From Bradyrhizobium archetypum (lineage in GTDB: Bacteria > Pseudomonadota > Alphaproteobacteria > Rhizobiales > Xanthobacteraceae), in assembly GCF_013114835.1 (NCBI RefSeq), contig NZ_JAAVLW010000005.1, positions 124,001 to 188,000 on the forward strand: a DNA stretch of 64,000 bases. Direction: 5' to 3'. Position numbers and translations under genes: made by a program. The notes under the pieces are model-generated. The model was not told where the DNA came from, made no database searches, and saw only the letters and a program-made list of their open reading frames with translations. Shown here piece by piece: positions 1,304 through 51,510 of this stretch (positions are counted from its first letter, which is position 1; the number at the start of each line of letters is the position of its first letter).

Positions 1304-2505
1304 CCGCCCATGCTCCGGCTGATCCGCCATCCATAGAAGCTCATGATCGCGCTGGTGACCAGCGAGATCAGGAGATAGACGCCCATGGTGATGCCGATGA
1401 TTTCAATCGCCTGCCCGGTCTGGCTCAGCGTGGTTCCGGCAAACACCGAAACCAGGTCGGGGTAGCCGATCGCGACCGCCAGCGAGGAGTTCTTGGTCAG
1501 GTTGAGATACTGGTTGGTCAGCGGCGGCAGGATCACCCGCAAGGCTTGCGGGATCACGATCAGCCGCAGCACCGAGCCGCGCTGCAGTCCGAGCGAGGAG
1601 CCGGCTTCCATCTGGCCCTTGTGCACGGAAAGAATGCCCGCGCGCACGATCTCGGCGATGAAGGCTGCCGTGTAGGTCGATAGCGCGAGCGTCAGCGCGA
1701 CGAATTCTGGAATGAGCCGAGAGCCGCCGGCGAAGTTGAAGCCTCTGAGCACCGGCACCTCGAACGTGACCGGGACGCCGAAGATCAGCACGCTGATGAG
1801 CGGCAGGCCGATGATCATGGCGAGCGCATAGGGCCACACCTTGATCACCTTGCCGCTTTGGAAGAGCTGCCGGCGCGCGTATCGCCACAATATGATTGCA
1901 GCGATGATCGCCGCCAGCAGGGCGACGACGAACGGTTCGAAACCGGCCTCGCCGATCGGCTTGGGAATGACGAGACCGCGATTGCTTAGAAAGATGCCGT
2001 TGAAGATCGAAATGCTCTGCCGCGGATTGGGCAAGGCAGCGAGCACCGCGAGATACCAGAACAGAATCTGAAACAGCAGCGGCAGGTTGCGGATCAGTTC
2101 GACATAGCCGCCCGAGATCCGCGACAGCAGCCAGTTCGGCGACAGACGGCCAAGCGCGACGAGGAAGCCGATGATGGTGGCGAAGAAAATGCCGATCACC
2201 GAGACCAGCAGCGTATTGAGCAGGCCGACGACAAAGACGCGCGTGTAGGGATCGGAGCCGGAATACGGGATCAGGCTCTGGCTGACGTCAAAGCCCGCAT
2301 TGTTGGCAAGGAAGCCGAAGCCGGCGGTGATCCGCTGCGCCTGCAAATTGGCGCGGGCATTGGCGACGATCTCATAGGAGATCCAGGCGAGCGCGGCGAC
2401 GAACAGGAGCTGGAGCACGAAGCCGCTCCAGCCCGCTCGGCCGCCGAGCGCCCTCTGCAGCTTGGGAAGTAGCTGCGACGGAGGTTTTCGGGGTTCGATG
2501 GCCAT
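1300..2505 (-). CDS. aapQ: General L-amino acid ABC transporter permease AapQ
   Basis: Second inner-membrane permease of the AapJQMP amino-acid importer, 401 residues, the usual length. A first transmembrane helix lies at about residues 28-48. The HisMQ-type core follows from about residue 90 (RVFVVGLLNTLLVSVIGIFF), with LIRNLPLLFQILFWY and a C-terminal EAA-like loop (MEAGSSLGLQRGSVLRLIVI). It sits 24 bases downstream of aapJ and overlaps aapM by 4 bases, so aapJ, aapQ and aapM form one operon. AapQ and AapM are expected to heterodimerise and pair with the ATPase AapP, which should lie just outside the window. Confidence 0.95.
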   Translation of the reverse strand: MAIEPRKPPSQLLPKLQRALGGRAGWSGFVLQLLFVAALAWISYEIVANARANLQAQRITAGFGFLANNAGFDVSQSLIPYSGSDPYTRVFVVGLLNTLLVSVIGIFFATIIGFLVALGRLSPNWLLSRISGGYVELIRNLPLLFQILFWYLAVLAALPNPRQSISIFNGIFLSNRGLVIPKPIGEAGFEPFVVALLAAIIAAIILWRYARRQLFQSGKVIKVWPYALAMIIGLPLISVLIFGVPVTFEVPVLRGFNFAGGSRLIPEFVALTLALSTYTAAFIAEIVRAGILSVHKGQMEAGSSLGLQRGSVLRLIVIPQALRVILPPLTNQYLNLTKNSSLAVAIGYPDLVSVFAGTTLSQTGQAIEIIGITMGVYLLISLVTSAIMSFYGWRISRSMGG

Positions 2506-2529
2506 CGCCGCAGCCCCTCTCCTTGGCGC

Positions 2530-3543
2530 TTAGCGGATCGGCGGCGCGTACTGGATGCCGCCCTTGCTCCAGAGCTGGTTAAGGCCGCGGGCGATGCCGA
2601 GCTTGGAGCCGGAGCCGACATTGCGTTCGAAGGACTCACCGTAATTGCCGACCGCCTTCACGATCCGCACCATCCAGTCCTTGGTCAGGCCGAGCTGCTC
2701 GCCCAGATTGCCGTCGGTGCCCACGGCGCGCTTGACCTCGGGCTTGTCGGACTTGACGATCTCATCGACGTTTTTCTGGGTCATGCCGAGTTCCTCGGCG
2801 CCTACCATCGCGTAGAGCGTCCATTTCACGACATCGAACCATTGATCGTCGCCATGGCGGACCATCGGTCCGAGCGGCTCCTTCGAGATCACTTCGGGCA
2901 GCACGACGTGATCAGCCGGCGTCGCGAGCTTGAGGCGTTCGGCATAGAGCTGGGAGACATCAGAGGTGAAGACGTCGCAGCGGCCGGACTCATAGGCTTT
3001 GACGGTTTCGTCCGCGGTCGCAAACGCGATCACCTCATACTTCATGTTGTTGCCCTTGAAGTAGTCGGCAAGGTTTTGCTCGGTCGTGGTGCCGGTCTGC
3101 ACGCAGACGGAAGCGCTGTTGAGTTCCAACGCAGAGTTCACCTTCAGCGACTTCTTCACCAGGAAGCCCTGGCCGTCATAATAGGTCACGCCGGTGAAGT
3201 TGGCGCCAAGCGAAGTGTCGCGCGACAGCGTCCAGGTCGTGTTGCGGGACAGCACGTCGATCTCGCCGGACTGCAGCGCGGTAAAGCGGTCCTTGGCCGA
3301 CAAGGGCACGAATTTGATCTTGGTCGCATCATTGAAAATGGCCGCGGCGATCGCCCGGCAGATATCGACGTCGAGCCCGGTCCAGTTACCCTTGTCATCG
3401 GGCGACGAGAAGCCCGGCAGGCCCTGGCTGACCCCACAGGACAGCATCCCGCGGTCCTTGACCGTCTTGAGGGTTTGCGCCGAGGCGGCCTGAGCCGTGA
3501 GGCCGGCAAGGGCAAGGGTAACAACCAGAGATACGCGTTTCAT
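2530..3543 (-). CDS. aapJ: Amino acid ABC transporter periplasmic binding protein AapJ
   Basis: Periplasmic receptor that captures L-amino acids for the AapQM permease, 337 residues. The start is the ATG at 3543. It is followed by a clear signal peptide (MKRVSLVVTLALAGLTAQA, cleavage near ASA-Q) and preceded by a GAAAGG ribosome site. A longer in-frame start at 3708 adds 55 residues with no signal character. The mature protein has the SBP type-3 fold signature (GNWTGLDVDICRAIAAAIF), and a Cys occurs in SVCVQTGTTTEQ. It is the first gene of the aap operon, divergent from metC. Nitrogen-regulated expression is known for rhizobial aap operons; no specific site was identified here. Confidence 0.95.
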   Translation of the reverse strand: MKRVSLVVTLALAGLTAQAASAQTLKTVKDRGMLSCGVSQGLPGFSSPDDKGNWTGLDVDICRAIAAAIFNDATKIKFVPLSAKDRFTALQSGEIDVLSRNTTWTLSRDTSLGANFTGVTYYDGQGFLVKKSLKVNSALELNSASVCVQTGTTTEQNLADYFKGNNMKYEVIAFATADETVKAYESGRCDVFTSDVSQLYAERLKLATPADHVVLPEVISKEPLGPMVRHGDDQWFDVVKWTLYAMVGAEELGMTQKNVDEIVKSDKPEVKRAVGTDGNLGEQLGLTKDWMVRIVKAVGNYGESFERNVGSGSKLGIARGLNQLWSKGGIQYAPPIR

Positions 3544-3880
3544 GGGCAAAGGCCTTTCAAGGGGTCGTCCGGAAGATACTTCTAGGCAACGCCTGACGTT
3601 GGGGGCCAACCCGCTGATCCCTCGCTGAAAAGCGTCATGCTGACCGTGCATTTGGCGTGCCATTCCGGTCAGGCGGTGGATCCGGTATCGCAGCAGGCCC
3701 CTCAACATGCAGCGAGTGTTAGTTTGGCATGCATCACAGAACGACTGGCGTGCCGGGTCAAGGGGTTGACTGCCTACTTCTGTGTCTTGTTATTAACTCA
3801 GCCGGTCCCCGCCCCCGGACCGACGGTGTTTTCGCCGTCAAGTTGCGGCTGCGGCATAACGTCTTGGATAATGCAAACGC
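3544..3880. promoter_or_regulatory. Divergent promoter region between aapJ and metC
   Basis: This 337-base non-coding stretch separates the aap operon (-) from metC (+) and must hold both promoters. On the + strand a TTGACT at 3766-3771 stands 18 bases before TTATTA (3790-3795), a plausible housekeeping-type promoter about 85 bases upstream of metC. No convincing matching pair was found for aapJ, and no long operator palindrome was seen. The divergent metC-aap order recurs in rhizobia, from recall. Confidence 0.4.
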
Positions 3881-45022: not shown

Positions 45023-45029
45023 GCGGCCT
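45012..45029. terminator. Bidirectional hairpin spanning two opposing stop codons
   Basis: A perfect 7-bp stem AGGCCGC / GCGGCCT with loop GTAG contains the dapA-like stop in its loop and right side and touches the opposing hmgL stop (45028-45030). Only five bases separate the two genes. No T-run is present. Confidence 0.4.
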
Positions 45030-45933
45030 ACTTGGCTCGCGCCTTCGCATTCAACGCCGCCGCGACGCGGCTGACCGGCGGCCGGCCGATCAGGCCGCTC
45101 ACGACATTGGTCGCGGCGACCAACTTTTCCATGTCGATTCCGGTCCCAATGCCCAAGCCCTCGAGCATATAGACGACATCCTCCGTCGCGACGTTGCCCG
45201 TCGCGCCGGGGGCATAGGGGCAGCCGCCGAGGCCGCCGGCTGCGGAATCGACCGCGCGGCAGCCTTCCTCCATTCCGGCGTAGAGATTGGCGAGCGCCTG
45301 GCCATAGGTGTCGTGGAAATGCATGGCGAGATTGGCCATCGGCACGTGGCCGGCGACCGCGCGCAACAGCTGCCGCGCTTTCAGTGGCGTGCCGACGCCG
45401 ATGGTATCGCCGAGCGAGATTTCGTAGCAGCCGAGATCCCACAGCACCTTTGCGACATCGACCACCGCCTGCGGCTTGATCTCGCCCTCATAGGGACAGC
45501 CGAGCACGGTGGAAATGTAGCCGCGCACCCGGACGCCATCGGCCTTGGCGCGCGCGAGCACCGGCTTGAACCGCTCGATCGATTCCGCGATTCCGCAATT
45601 GATGTTGGCGCACGAAAAGCTTTCCGACGCGGCGGCAAACACGGCGATCAATTTGGCACCGGCCGCCTGCGAAGCCTCATAGCCCTTCTCGTTCGGCACC
45701 AGCACCGGCAGCTCGCAGTTGGTGTGATGGCTGACGCCGCGCAAGACTTCGGCCGAGCCCACCATTTGCGGAATCGCCTTGGGCGAGACGAACGCGCCGA
45801 CCTCCACTGCCTTGAGCCCGGCGCCGATCAGCGCCTCGACGAAAGCGATCCGATCAGCGACGCTGATCGGGGTTTTCTCGTTCTGCAGCCCGTCGCGCGG
45901 GCCGACTTCGACGATGTGAATGCTATCGCTCAT
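45028..45933 (-). CDS. Hydroxymethylglutaryl-CoA lyase
   Basis: 301-residue DRE-TIM metallolyase that splits HMG-CoA into acetoacetate and acetyl-CoA, the last step of leucine/isovalerate breakdown. VEVGPRDGLQNEKTPI is the N-terminal substrate/metal motif, HFHDTYGQAL holds the metal histidines and GGLGGCPYAPGATGNVATED carries the catalytic cysteine loop. The ATG overlaps the mccA stop by 4 bases. It is the final gene of the operon ivd-mccB-mccA-hmgL. Confidence 0.93.
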   Translation of the reverse strand: MSDSIHIVEVGPRDGLQNEKTPISVADRIAFVEALIGAGLKAVEVGAFVSPKAIPQMVGSAEVLRGVSHHTNCELPVLVPNEKGYEASQAAGAKLIAVFAAASESFSCANINCGIAESIERFKPVLARAKADGVRVRGYISTVLGCPYEGEIKPQAVVDVAKVLWDLGCYEISLGDTIGVGTPLKARQLLRAVAGHVPMANLAMHFHDTYGQALANLYAGMEEGCRAVDSAAGGLGGCPYAPGATGNVATEDVVYMLEGLGIGTGIDMEKLVAATNVVSGLIGRPPVSRVAAALNAKARAK

Positions 45934-47939
45934 GGTGTGGCCGTCGGTTCGATTTCGGCAAGCTCAACGCCTTCGCCGACGATATCGCCGACCTTGCAGT
46001 TGAGCTTCTTCAAGACGCCAGCAAAGGGCGCGCGGAGCGTCTGCTCCATTTTCATGACTTCCAGCGTCAGGATCGCGGCTCCTTTTTCCATGGCTGCGCC
46101 TTCCTCGGCCAGCAACGCCACGACTGTGCCCGGCAAGGGCGCCACGATCTTGTCCTCGCCGACCTGCTCCTCGGTCTCGCCGCCGAACGGATCGACCCAA
46201 TGCAGGTCGAAGCGGCCGTTCCGGGTGCGCAGGTAAAGCTCGTGCCCCTCGATCACGGCGGTCACACGCGACTTCATACCGTCGAGCGTGAGGTCGAAGG
46301 CGCCGCCATCCGCCGGCGAGATCGCGAAAACAAACTGGTGCTTGCCGATCGATAGCGTCGACAGCCCATTGCCATATCGCAGCGTCACCTTCTGTTCGCC
46401 GCCCTGCCCCTGGCGGAACGAGAATACCCGCTGCCGCTGCCCGACCGGCATCCAGCCGAAAGTCTGCCAGGGCGAATGCGCCTCCCTGCCCGCCGCCTTC
46501 CGTTCGTCGTGGACGATCGCACCGACCGCGGCGCAAAGCTCGAGATTGCCGGCTGTCCCGGAGAACTCTGTCAGCTTGTTCAGCTCGCGCTCGATGAAGC
46601 CGGTGTCAATCGTATTGGCGCGCACGTCAGGATGCATGATGAGCGCCGACAGGAACGAAATGTTCGTGACGATGCCACGGACGTCGGTCTCTTCCAGCCC
46701 GCGGTTGAGCCGCTCGATCGCGGCTTGGCGCGTCGGCGCCCAGGCGATGACTTTAGCCAACATAGCGTCGTAATAGGGCGATACTGCATCACCATCGCGA
46801 TAGCCGGCATCGATGCGCAGGCCGTCGACGGCATCTGGCGTACGCCAGATGCTGATCCGGCCGACCGAGGGCATGAAGTTCTTCTGCGGGTTTTCGGCGT
46901 AGACCCGCGCCTCGATGGCATGGCCGTTCAGCTTGATCTCGTCCTGCGTGAGCGGCAGCTTTTCGCCGAACGCCACCCGCAACTGCCATTCGACGAGATC
47001 GACGCCGGTGATCAGTTCGGTCACGGGATGCTCGACCTGCAGGCGGGTGTTCATCTCGATGAAGAACACCTTCTTGCCATCAGAGACGAATTCGATCGTG
47101 CCGGCGCCGACATAGTCGACGGCAGCCGCCGCCCTGCGCGCGGCTTCGCAAACCGTCTCACGTTGTTTAGTGTCCAGCGTGGGCGACGGCGCCTCCTCGA
47201 TCACCTTCTGGTGCCGCCGCTGCAGCGTGCATTCGCGCTCCCAAAGCGAAAGCAGATTGCCGTGGCTGTCGCCGATGATCTGCACCTCGATGTGCCGTGG
47301 GTTTTGCACGAATTTCTCGATCAGCATGCGGTCGTCGCCGAATGCCGCCTTGGCCTCGCGCTTGGCGCTGACGATTGCCGCCGCAAGCTCTGCCGCCGAA
47401 TTGACCACGCGCATGCCGCGTCCGCCGCCGCCGGCGGATGCCTTCACCAGAACGGGGAAGCCGATCGCATCGGCGGCCCTCGCCAGTGTCGCCTCGTCCT
47501 GCGCCTCGCCATGATAGCCGGGCACCAGCGGCACGCCGGCTTTTTCCATCAGCGCTTTCGAGCCCGACTTCGAGCCCATCGCCGTCATCATCTCGGCGGT
47601 AGGACCGACGAATACCAGCCCGGCGTTCAGGCAGGCCTTCGCGAACTCGGCATTCTCCGACAGGAATCCGTAGCCGGGATGGACAGCTTCGGCGCCGGTC
47701 TGGCGCGCGGCTTCGATCACCCGCTCGATGTTGAGATAGCTGTCGCGCGCCCGCGCCGGTCCGAGCAGCACGGCCTCATCGGCCATGGCGACGTGCATGG
47801 CGTCGCAATCGGCCTCCGAATAGACGGCAACCGTGCGCAGCCCCATGGCTCGGGCGGAGCGGGTGACCCGGCAGGCGATCTCGCCACGGTTGGCGATCAG
47901 GAGCGTATGGAAACGGCGGTAAAGCTTTGCGCGGTCCAT
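45930..47939 (-). CDS. Methylcrotonoyl-CoA carboxylase biotin-containing alpha subunit
   Basis: 669-residue biotin carboxylase fused to a biotin carrier domain. The biotin carboxylase core begins FHTLLIANRGEIACRVTRSA, with ATP-grasp glycine loop KASAGGGGRGMRVV and catalytic FIEMNTRLQVEHPVTE. The biotinyl lysine is in LTLEVMKMEQTLRAPF near the C-terminus. Biotin carboxylase subunits of propionyl-CoA or geranyl-CoA carboxylases look similar, but neighbours (mccB, hmgL, broken ivd) settle the role. It starts at 47939 after AGGA, two bases after the mccB stop. Confidence 0.92.
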   Translation of the reverse strand: MDRAKLYRRFHTLLIANRGEIACRVTRSARAMGLRTVAVYSEADCDAMHVAMADEAVLLGPARARDSYLNIERVIEAARQTGAEAVHPGYGFLSENAEFAKACLNAGLVFVGPTAEMMTAMGSKSGSKALMEKAGVPLVPGYHGEAQDEATLARAADAIGFPVLVKASAGGGGRGMRVVNSAAELAAAIVSAKREAKAAFGDDRMLIEKFVQNPRHIEVQIIGDSHGNLLSLWERECTLQRRHQKVIEEAPSPTLDTKQRETVCEAARRAAAAVDYVGAGTIEFVSDGKKVFFIEMNTRLQVEHPVTELITGVDLVEWQLRVAFGEKLPLTQDEIKLNGHAIEARVYAENPQKNFMPSVGRISIWRTPDAVDGLRIDAGYRDGDAVSPYYDAMLAKVIAWAPTRQAAIERLNRGLEETDVRGIVTNISFLSALIMHPDVRANTIDTGFIERELNKLTEFSGTAGNLELCAAVGAIVHDERKAAGREAHSPWQTFGWMPVGQRQRVFSFRQGQGGEQKVTLRYGNGLSTLSIGKHQFVFAISPADGGAFDLTLDGMKSRVTAVIEGHELYLRTRNGRFDLHWVDPFGGETEEQVGEDKIVAPLPGTVVALLAEEGAAMEKGAAILTLEVMKMEQTLRAPFAGVLKKLNCKVGDIVGEGVELAEIEPTATP

Positions 47940-47941
47940 CG

Positions 47942-49546
47942 TCACATCCTGAACAGGCCAAACTTCGTCGGTTCGATCGGCGCATTCGCCGCGGCTGAAA
48001 GGCCAAGGCCCAGCACCAGCCGGGTGTCGGCGGGATCGATCACGCCGTCGTCCCACAGCCGCGCGGTGGCGTAATAGGGATTGCCCTGGCTTTCATATTG
48101 CGCGCGGATCGGCGCGCGGAACTTTTCCTCCTCTTCCGCCGACCAGGTCTCGCCCTTGGCCTCGATATTGTCACGGCGGACCTGGCTCAGCACCATCGAG
48201 GCCTGCTCGCCGCCCATCACGGAGATGCGGGCGTTCGGCCACAGCCAGAGAAAGCGCGGGCTATAGGAGCGGCCGCACATGCCGTAATTGCCGGCGCCAT
48301 AGGAGCCGCCGATCACGACCGTGAATTTCGGCACGCCCGCGGTCGCTACCGCCGTCACCAGCTTGGCGCCATCGCGCGCGATGCCGCCGGCCTCGTATTT
48401 CTTGCCGACCATGAAGCCGGTGATGTTCTGCAAAAACACCAGCGGGATATTGCGTTGGCAGCACAATTCGATGAAATGCGCGCCTTTCAGCGAGCTCTCG
48501 CTGAACAGGATGCCGTTGTTGGCGATGATGCCGACCGGATAGCCCCAGACATGGGCGAAGCCGCAGATCAGCGTCGTGCCGTAGAGCTTCTTGAATTCAT
48601 CGAACTCCGAGCCGTCGACAATTCGCGCGATGATGTCGTGGACGTCGAACGGCTTTCTGCCATCGGCGGAGACCACGCCGTAGATTTCCTCCGCCGGGAA
48701 CAGCGGCTCACGCGGCTCGCGCATGTTGAGCACAGCGCGCGTCGGCTGTTTCAGCGTGGCGACAATGCGCCGGGCGATCCCGATCGCATGAGCATCGTTC
48801 TGCGCGTAGTGATCGGTGACGCCCGAGTGGCGGGAATGCACGTCGGCGCCACCGAGCTCCTCGGCGGATACCACCTCGCCGGTCGCAGCCTTCACCAGCG
48901 GCGGCCCGCCGAGAAAGATCGTGCCCTGATTGCGCACAATGATGCTCTCGTCCGACATCGCCGGCACATAAGCGCCGCCCGCGGTGCAGGAGCCCATCAC
49001 GATCGCAATCTGCGGAATGCCCATCGAGGACATTTGCGCCTGATTGTAGAAGATGCGGCCGAAATGGCGCTCGTCCGGAAAGATCTCGTCCTGCATCGGC
49101 AGGAAGGCGCCGCCGGAATCGACCATATAGACACAGGGCAGATTGTTCTGCCGCGCGATATCCTGCGCCCGCAGATGCTTCTTCACGGTCATCGGATAAT
49201 AGGTGCCGCCCTTGATGGTGGCATCGTTGGCGACAATGATGCATTCGCGGCCGGAAATACGCCCCACGCCAGTGATGACGCTGGCGGAATGGACGTCGCC
49301 GCCATAAAGGCCGTTGGCGGCGAGTGGCGACAATTCGAGAAAGGCGGTGCCGGGATCAACCAGGAGATCGACGCGCTCGCGCGCCAGCATCTTGCCGCGT
49401 GACGTATGCCGCTTGCGCGAGGCTTCGCCGCCGCCGCCGGAAACCACCTTGAGCTTCTCGCGCAGTTCGGCCACGAGACCCCGCATCACGTCAGCGTTGC
49501 GGGCAAACTCGGAGGATTTCGGATCGATGGTGGAATGAAGCGGCAT
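47942..49546 (-). CDS. Methylcrotonoyl-CoA carboxylase carboxyltransferase beta subunit
   Basis: 534-residue crotonase-fold carboxyltransferase that moves CO2 from biotin to 3-methylcrotonyl-CoA. Family features are [40 protein letters not shown], the oxyanion-forming [16 protein letters not shown] and [20 protein letters not shown] / [18 protein letters not shown] in the C-terminal half. Length is normal. It lies 105 bases after the ivd remnant and 2 bases before mccA. Confidence 0.93.
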
Positions 49547-49651: not shown

Positions 49652-50660
49652 TCAGGCGGTCTTCTCGAACAGTTCCCGCCCGATCAGCATGCGGCGGATT
49701 TCGCTGGTGCCGGCGCCGATCTCGTAGAGCTTGGCGTCGCGCAGCAGCCGGCCGGTCGGGTAGTCGTTGATGTAGCCGTTGCCGCCCAAGAGCTGGATGG
49801 CGTCGAGCGCGCATTGGGTGGCTTTTTCCGCCGCGTAGAGAATGGCGCCCGCGGCATCCTCGCGCGTGGTCTCGCCGCGGTCGCAGGCCTTGGCCACCGC
49901 GTAGACATAGGCGCGCGAGGCATTCATCGTGGTGTACATGTCGGCGATCTTGCCCTCCGAGCACGTTGTCCGCCGGCACCTCGCAATCCTCAAACAACAG
50001 CTCGCAGGTGTCGGAGCCGCGCATGCCGAGCTTGTCGAGCTTCTGGGCGGTGGAAAAGCCCTTCATGCCCTTTTCGATCAGGAAGGCGGTGATGCCGCGC
50101 GGACCGGCGTTGGCGTCGGTCTTGGCGTAGACCACCAGCGTGTCGGCCTCGGGCCCGTTGGTGATCCACATCTTGTTGCCGTTCAGCACGAAGCGGTCGC
50201 CCTTCTTCTCGGCGCGGGTCTTCATCGAGACCACATCGGAACCGGCGCCGGGCTCCGACATCGCCAGCGAGCCGACATGCTCGCCGGAGATCAGTTTCGG
50301 CAGGTATTTGCGCTTCTGCGCCTCGCTGCCGTTGCGGCGGATCTGGTTGACGCAGAGGTTGGAATGCGCGCCGTAGGACAGGCCGACGGAGGCGGACGCC
50401 CGCGAGATCTCTTCCAGCGCAATGCAATGCTCGAGATAGCCGAGGCCGGCGCCGCCATACTCCTCCTCCACCGTGATGCCGTGCAGCCCGAGCGCGCCGA
50501 TCCTCGGCCAGAGGTCGCGCGGAAACTGGTTGCTGCGGTCGATCTCGGCGGCGCGCGGGGCGATTTCGTTTTGCGAAAACGCATGCACCGTCTCGCGGAT
50601 CGCATCCGCGGTTTCACCGAGATCGAAGTTGAGAAGCTGCGCCCTGTTCGAGGCCATCAT
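49652..50660 (-). pseudogene. Isovaleryl-CoA dehydrogenase, internal deletion with frame change
   Basis: Acyl-CoA dehydrogenase that should convert isovaleryl-CoA to methylcrotonyl-CoA. The first 235 residues are normal ([53 protein letters not shown]). The sequence then jumps, in another frame, to [20 protein letters not shown] and a normal C-terminus ending [10 protein letters not shown] (stop 49652). About 55 codons are missing at the junction (near 49953-49960). From family knowledge these hold the catalytic glutamate region (GLDYERxVLAxGPLG) and the RKQFGQPIGEF segment. Read through in frame, the 5' part instead runs to a junk tail ending at 49491. No active enzyme is expected unless this is an assembly error. 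Confidence 0.88.
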
Positions 50661-50701: not shown

Positions 50702-50841
50702 TTTTACTATCACTACAAGAGGAACCTTTTCAGGTTCAATTGAGTGCCGCAGATAATTGAAAATACTATCCTTTCATGTCATTATTATACGATCGCTTGC
50801 TCGTTTCCACAGACAACGAACGCTCATCTTTCAGAGGCCCC

Positions 50842-51510
50842 ATGGCGCGGACGATCGGCTCTCAGGGCCCCAAGACGATGGAGGCGATCCGCAAGGCCGG
50901 GCTGCGCCTGATCTTCGAGCACGGCTATGCCGCCATGAGCCTGCGCCAGCTCGCCGCGGAAGTCGGGATACAGTCGGGTTCGCTCTACAACCATATCTCG
51001 ACGAAGCAGGAATTGTTGTTCGTACTGGTACGCGACCACATCAACGAATTGCTGCGCCAGCTCGATCGTGCCCTGGATGGGAAACAGCGGCCGGCCGACA
51101 AGCTCCGTGCCTTCGTCGCTTTTCACGTCAGCTATCATATGACGAGAAAACGCGAGGTCTTCATCGCCAATTCCGAGCTGCGGAGTCTCGAGCCGAAGAA
51201 CTATGAGGAGATCGTGGCGCTGCGCGGCGCCTATGAGCAGCGGCTGGCGGAAATTCTCGGCCAGGGGGTCGCCGAAGGCGAGTTCGAGGTCGTGGACATC
51301 CAGGTGGCGACATTTGCAATCCTCGCCTTGTTGACCGGTCTCACCACCTGGTACCGGCCCGGCGGGAGGCTCACCAAGGAGGCGATCGTCGCCGCCCATG
51401 AGAAGCTGGTGCTATCCGGCGTCACCCCTGGCGCGAAACCCGATCAAGCTCGAGTCCTACGCACGCCCTCCCCTGACGTCAGGGCGCGGGGCGGACCGGA
51501 GCGTCGATAG
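50842..51510 (+). CDS. TetR-family regulator, probable controller of the leucine/isovalerate operon
   Basis: 222-residue TetR repressor. The N-terminal helix-turn-helix is MSLRQLAAEVGIQSGSLYNH (about 33-52); the C-terminal ligand domain includes REVFIANSELRSLEPKNYEE and AILALLTGLTTWYRPGGRLT, a pattern shared with acyl-CoA-responsive TetR proteins. The ATG at 50842 follows AGAGG; an ATG at 50776 would add 22 residues. It is divergent from ivd-mccBA-hmgL and so is the likely regulator, with an acyl-CoA as inferred ligand. The C-terminal tail is unusually Arg/Pro-rich. Confidence 0.86.
   Translation: MARTIGSQGPKTMEAIRKAGLRLIFEHGYAAMSLRQLAAEVGIQSGSLYNHISTKQELLFVLVRDHINELLRQLDRALDGKQRPADKLRAFVAFHVSYHMTRKREVFIANSELRSLEPKNYEEIVALRGAYEQRLAEILGQGVAEGEFEVVDIQVATFAILALLTGLTTWYRPGGRLTKEAIVAAHEKLVLSGVTPGAKPDQARVLRTPSPDVRARGGPERR

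Follow-up and report, generated by a model that had tools for sequence, protein, structure and literature searches.

Gene conversion is an established mechanism of concerted evolution, and PMC6053082 presents the tufA/tufB pair as an example. PMC11017572 traces many bacterial pseudogenes to assembly; false pseudogenes and assembly errors at repeated sequences are described for draft genomes of bacteria both there and in PMC5771137. The ivd (isovaleryl-CoA dehydrogenase) genes compared here resemble tufA/tufB in that own-genome paralogues are closer than orthologues and the flanks reveal two old loci. They differ in encoding a catabolic acyl-CoA dehydrogenase, and in that the present data come from one part of one genus rather than from the hundreds of millions of years considered for tufA/tufB. 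Concerted evolution as a process is already known; the main text of PMC6053082 contains none of the words acyl-CoA, dehydrogenase and Bradyrhizobium, and in the open literature we found no report of ivd conversion or of a double ivd locus in Bradyrhizobium. The broken ivd gene described below would share with the draft-genome cases an origin in the assembly process, in this instance at a repeat that exceeds the assembler overlap, and would differ from them in that the repeat is a metabolic gene pair under concerted evolution.

The frame break in the ivd gene

In the window (the whole stretch of 64,000 nucleotides that was analysed), the ivd gene, hereafter copy a, occupies 1009 bases of the minus strand from 50660 to 49652. 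Its N-terminal part (49957–50660, minus strand) comprises 234 codons and 2 bases in frame 1 and reads as 235 residues ending in DNVLG, with whole matches to Acyl-CoA_dh_N and Acyl-CoA_dh_M. The C-terminus (49652–49956, minus strand) resumes in another frame for about 100 residues ending in FEKTA, and only positions 55–149 of the 150 of Acyl-CoA_dh_1 are matched there, out of frame. The frame break is not a product of chance, as judged from the domain matches of both parts. As assembled, the window copy does not present the N-terminal, middle and C-terminal domains of an isovaleryl-CoA dehydrogenase, all three of which are found in the intact gene of a relative, Bradyrhizobium sp. CSA112 (L017).

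The copies read in relatives are 1173–1176 bases long and encode 390–391 amino acids. Aligned with these intact genes, the window copy is 167 bases (55 codons and 2 bases) short between 49956 and 49957 on the minus strand, a junction that we located by this comparison and followed with a junction 27-mer. The loss of about 55 codons and the shift of frame claimed in the first-pass annotation were thus borne out, and its statement that the lost segment holds the RKQFG region also held, in that DYERAVL and RKQFGEPIG both fall inside the absent stretch. We take the catalytic glutamate of isovaleryl-CoA dehydrogenase to be located in DYERAVL.

The intact protein of CSA112 aligned end to end with the isovaleryl-CoA dehydrogenases of PDB 4o5m, 4kto and 1ivh (4o5m, E 1.7e-203), and the best five of 18 distinct sequences of solved structures were named isovaleryl-CoA dehydrogenase; this comparison was run on the intact relative, not on the broken window copy. 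Compared with these enzymes, the window copy as assembled is without approximately residues 236–290 of the intact protein. An NCBIfam search for isovaleryl-CoA dehydrogenase returned no model at its cut-off.

The neighbours of copy a on the minus strand are those of a leucine operon. Immediately downstream lies an mccB-type carboxyltransferase gene (47942–49546; Carboxyl_trans, 509.7 bits), which we used as the marker of locus a, followed by an mccA-type biotin carboxylase gene (45930–48056 as the longest open reading frame, its true start probably lying further in; BT_MCC_alpha, 34.0 bits at a cut-off of 31) and hmgL, for hydroxymethylglutaryl-CoA lyase (45028–45933; PRK05692, 418.7 bits at a cut-off of 246). 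Upstream of ivd, a TetR-type regulator gene (50776–51510, plus strand; TetR_C_24 and TetR_N) is divergently oriented.

A second ivd copy and the overlap length of the assembly

The window sits in contig C30 of a 7.02-Mb genome in 35 contigs. Searching this genome with the N-terminal part of the acyl-CoA dehydrogenase gave 31 matches, two of which were ivd; the next best was 40% identical. A second ivd gene, copy b, was indeed found, split over two contigs (C12:1–609 and C14:20196–20499): the left end of C12 matches the N-terminal part with 97% identity over residues 2–203, and the right end of C14 matches the C-terminal part with 99% identity. The sequences of C12 and C14 flank the second ivd in the same order in three relatives (G053, G039 and G031). 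In view of this copy, the earlier claim that the leucine operon is without its entry enzyme is unsupported, and this strain should not be cited as having lost that enzyme of leucine catabolism; were copy a really deleted, its role would most naturally fall to copy b.

The last 298 bases of C14, the 3' end of copy b, are identical to window positions 49659–49956 with zero mismatches, and C14 ends at the exact junction base. The point of divergence between C14 and the window is 49658, beside the stop codon. On the other side, the first 274 bases of C12, from the 5' part of copy b, are identical to window positions 50052–50325, the copies diverging from 50326; the start of C12 is placed 95 bases beyond the junction. 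In the frame of G053, a gap of 262 bases separates C12 from C14; the window has 95 of these bases and is without the other 167. The middle of copy b is also absent from the readable contigs, where a probe for the missing ivd stretch hit nothing closer than distant acyl-CoA dehydrogenases. Eight contigs of less than 1.3 kb are read as N and could harbour the stretch.

We compared both ends of every contig, counting exact overlaps of at least 15 bases among the 54 readable ends. Exactly 298 bases were common to 20 pairs (7 end-to-start overlaps and 13 common starts), and the remaining exact overlaps were of 223 (4), 160 (4) and 295 (2) bases, so that 298 bases is evidently the fixed overlap length of this assembly. 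Counting 298 bases from the divergence point at 49658 leads to 49956, the junction. Because divergence at the stop codon and the 298-base overlap fix the place where C14 ends, nothing beyond the repeat is needed to account for it. We had considered this contig end as proof of reads across the junction and dropped that argument for the same reason.

Concerted evolution of two ivd loci in Bradyrhizobium

Two ivd matches were counted in 26 genomes, and both loci were fetched for 22; the two-match genomes outside this pair analysis are G001, with contig-edge pieces, and G184, G147 and G170. In all 22 genomes, one copy occupies locus a, co-oriented with mccB and 101–118 bases ahead of it, and the other occupies locus b, opposite a P450 gene. 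All 44 copies are intact, with 390 or 391 codons, and 28 of them come from 14 single-contig genomes. Fourteen genomes with a single locus were also read, 8 with locus a and 6 with locus b. In six genomes (L161, L019, L268, L269, L270 and L271), ivd adjoins the P450 gene and mccB is absent from the fetched stretch. Beside copy b of L097, two related genes lie on one strand (819–2090 and 2198–3583); Pfam identifies the first as a P450, and the second resembles it.

Over 1092 bases of the gene, copies a and b within a genome are 94.3–99.9% identical (median 96.25), as against medians of 91.3% between genomes for locus-a copies (best 95.05) and 91.2% for locus-b copies (best 95.33). The nearest sequence was the own-genome paralogue for every one of the 44 copies. 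The same was seen at third codon positions, where the median identity is 90.7% within genomes versus 78.3% between them and the own paralogue was best in 22 of 22 pairs. In two single-contig genomes, G241 and G053, the stretches of complete identity between copies a and b extend to 1082 and 860 bases, respectively, so ivd repeats much longer than 298 bases occur naturally.

The gene tree, from which the CSA112 row was removed because its sequence is the same as that of G215a, groups the copies by genome, with 21 of 22 pairs supported and G215 unresolved beside G028; on this tree the label a needs 22 changes, every one forced by supported branches. By contrast with the gene bodies, the upstream 180 bases together with the first 36 bases of the gene are parted by a single branch, 30 a from 28 b, with an SH-aLRT of 100. 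An earlier tree that included the two copies of the source genome likewise set a and b (8 rows each) apart at 100/100. The downstream tree, of only 126 poorly filled bases, needed 3 changes rather than 1.

Because the gene bodies pair by genome while the upstream DNA sorts by locus, the pattern is, as far as sequence comparison reaches, concerted evolution: paralogues are closest even at silent sites, and the flanks point to two old loci with repeatedly homogenised reading frames rather than to repeated recent duplication. The homogenising process is almost certainly gene conversion. In all likelihood, then, part of Bradyrhizobium carries a pair of unlinked ivd genes, each in its own operon, kept near-identical in species after species by recurrent conversion of the body of the reading frame, with limits near its start and stop. 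If true, the ivd pair represents tuf-like concerted evolution in a catabolic gene, masked in short-read assemblies, and would offer a clear natural example for asking why two metabolic-gene loci stay alike and where conversion stops.

Origin of the junction

The loss of the 167 bases is very probably an artefact of assembly, and most probably not real. An assembly error at the junction was among the options raised in the first-pass annotation, and it is the one that the evidence favours. The observations behind it are the near-identical second copy in the same genome, longer than the assembler overlap, with which the window shares the two blocks; the 298-base rule, together with a junction that lies at a contig end plus the overlap length, exactly so on the left side; the intact copies of relatives; and the concerted evolution of the pair. 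Since C14 ends at the junction base and 298 bases is the overlap of the assembler, the apparent deletion falls at the exact end of a graph overlap. Reads would most probably show copy a to be intact.

The error may have arisen as follows. Gene conversion would have made the two ivd genes, a in the leucine operon and b beside the cytochrome P450 gene, nearly identical. The assembler would then have met the repeat at the onset of identity between the copies, past the stop codons, kept its fixed 298-base overlap from that point and ended C14. In C30, we infer, a piece ending at the last base of C14 was joined to a piece from the other side and the 167 bases were dropped, the exact step of this joining being conjectural. 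Some points speak against an artefact. On its right side the junction is untidy and lacks a clean 298-base overlap, in that the right piece of the window goes 71 bases past 298 into the shared block and C12 shares only 274 bases with the window. In addition, no second faulty join was found among 23 contig-end probes.

Of 265 Bradyrhizobium genomes searched for the junction 27-mer with up to 3 mismatches, only the source genome contained it, which rules out a conserved deletion of the lineage. With a cut-off of E ≤ 1e-60, a 371-base piece of intact ivd spanning the missing stretch was matched in 248 of 257 genomes, a count that includes the source genome through a single match (E 1.4e-66), which we take as the part outside the gap.

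It is improbable, in our judgement, that copy a truly carries a 167-base deletion, with an intact copy b supplying isovaleryl-CoA dehydrogenase and the bases found only in copy b lost as a short contig. Such a loss would be tolerable given copy b, and relatives with one ivd locus are many, as the fetched set illustrates. Moreover, the assembly graph would branch at the same junction base if copy a truly carried the deletion, which counts against the artefact, and the eight small contigs are read as N. On the other hand, a real deletion would have to fall by chance exactly 298 bases, the assembler overlap, from the divergence point, which we estimate at one in several hundred, and neither any of the 44 copies in two-copy relatives nor any other of the 265 genomes has the junction. 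We also considered deletion through microhomology: before the point of resumption the relatives read GTGCAGGGCAAG and the window CTCGGAGGGCAAG, with no clear direct repeat at the ends, and therefore no mechanism of true deletion is suggested. That a real deletion leaves the other enzymes of the operon to run without isovaleryl-CoA dehydrogenase, or with another acyl-CoA dehydrogenase as substitute, is highly improbable: the N-terminal part does have some 30 matches in the genome, but the second ivd copy is 97% (residues 2–203) and 99% (C-terminal part) identical and the next best match only 40%.

If the junction is an assembly error, as we favour, the same fault can be expected again in other Bradyrhizobium species with two copies, because the ivd pair is kept alike by concerted evolution. 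In five other drafts, ivd is interrupted by contig ends, with four pieces at contig ends in each of G056 and G023, two in each of G001 and G024, and one in G033. Both ivd contigs of G024 (L233:109–147 and L234:109–141) have runs of N inside the gene, of 40 and 34 N, explicable either as an assembly gap or as masking; that the middle of ivd is wholly missing in G024 was rejected, as parts of it were found at the starts of C103 and C92. In two-copy Bradyrhizobium, ivd is thus apt to look broken or missing in fragmented assemblies such as these five drafts, and its absence there does not equal loss of the gene.

Of the ends tested with the 23 probes, just one was placed within a different contig: the left end of C14, which falls in C4 and shares 276 bases with a cheA-type gene that is open through this point. 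Because its left end matches this gene and its right end lies in ivd, C14 has both ends inside repeats. The cheA-like gene of C4 (221–2962) and C14:1–1473 are 96% identical over about 1.5 kb.
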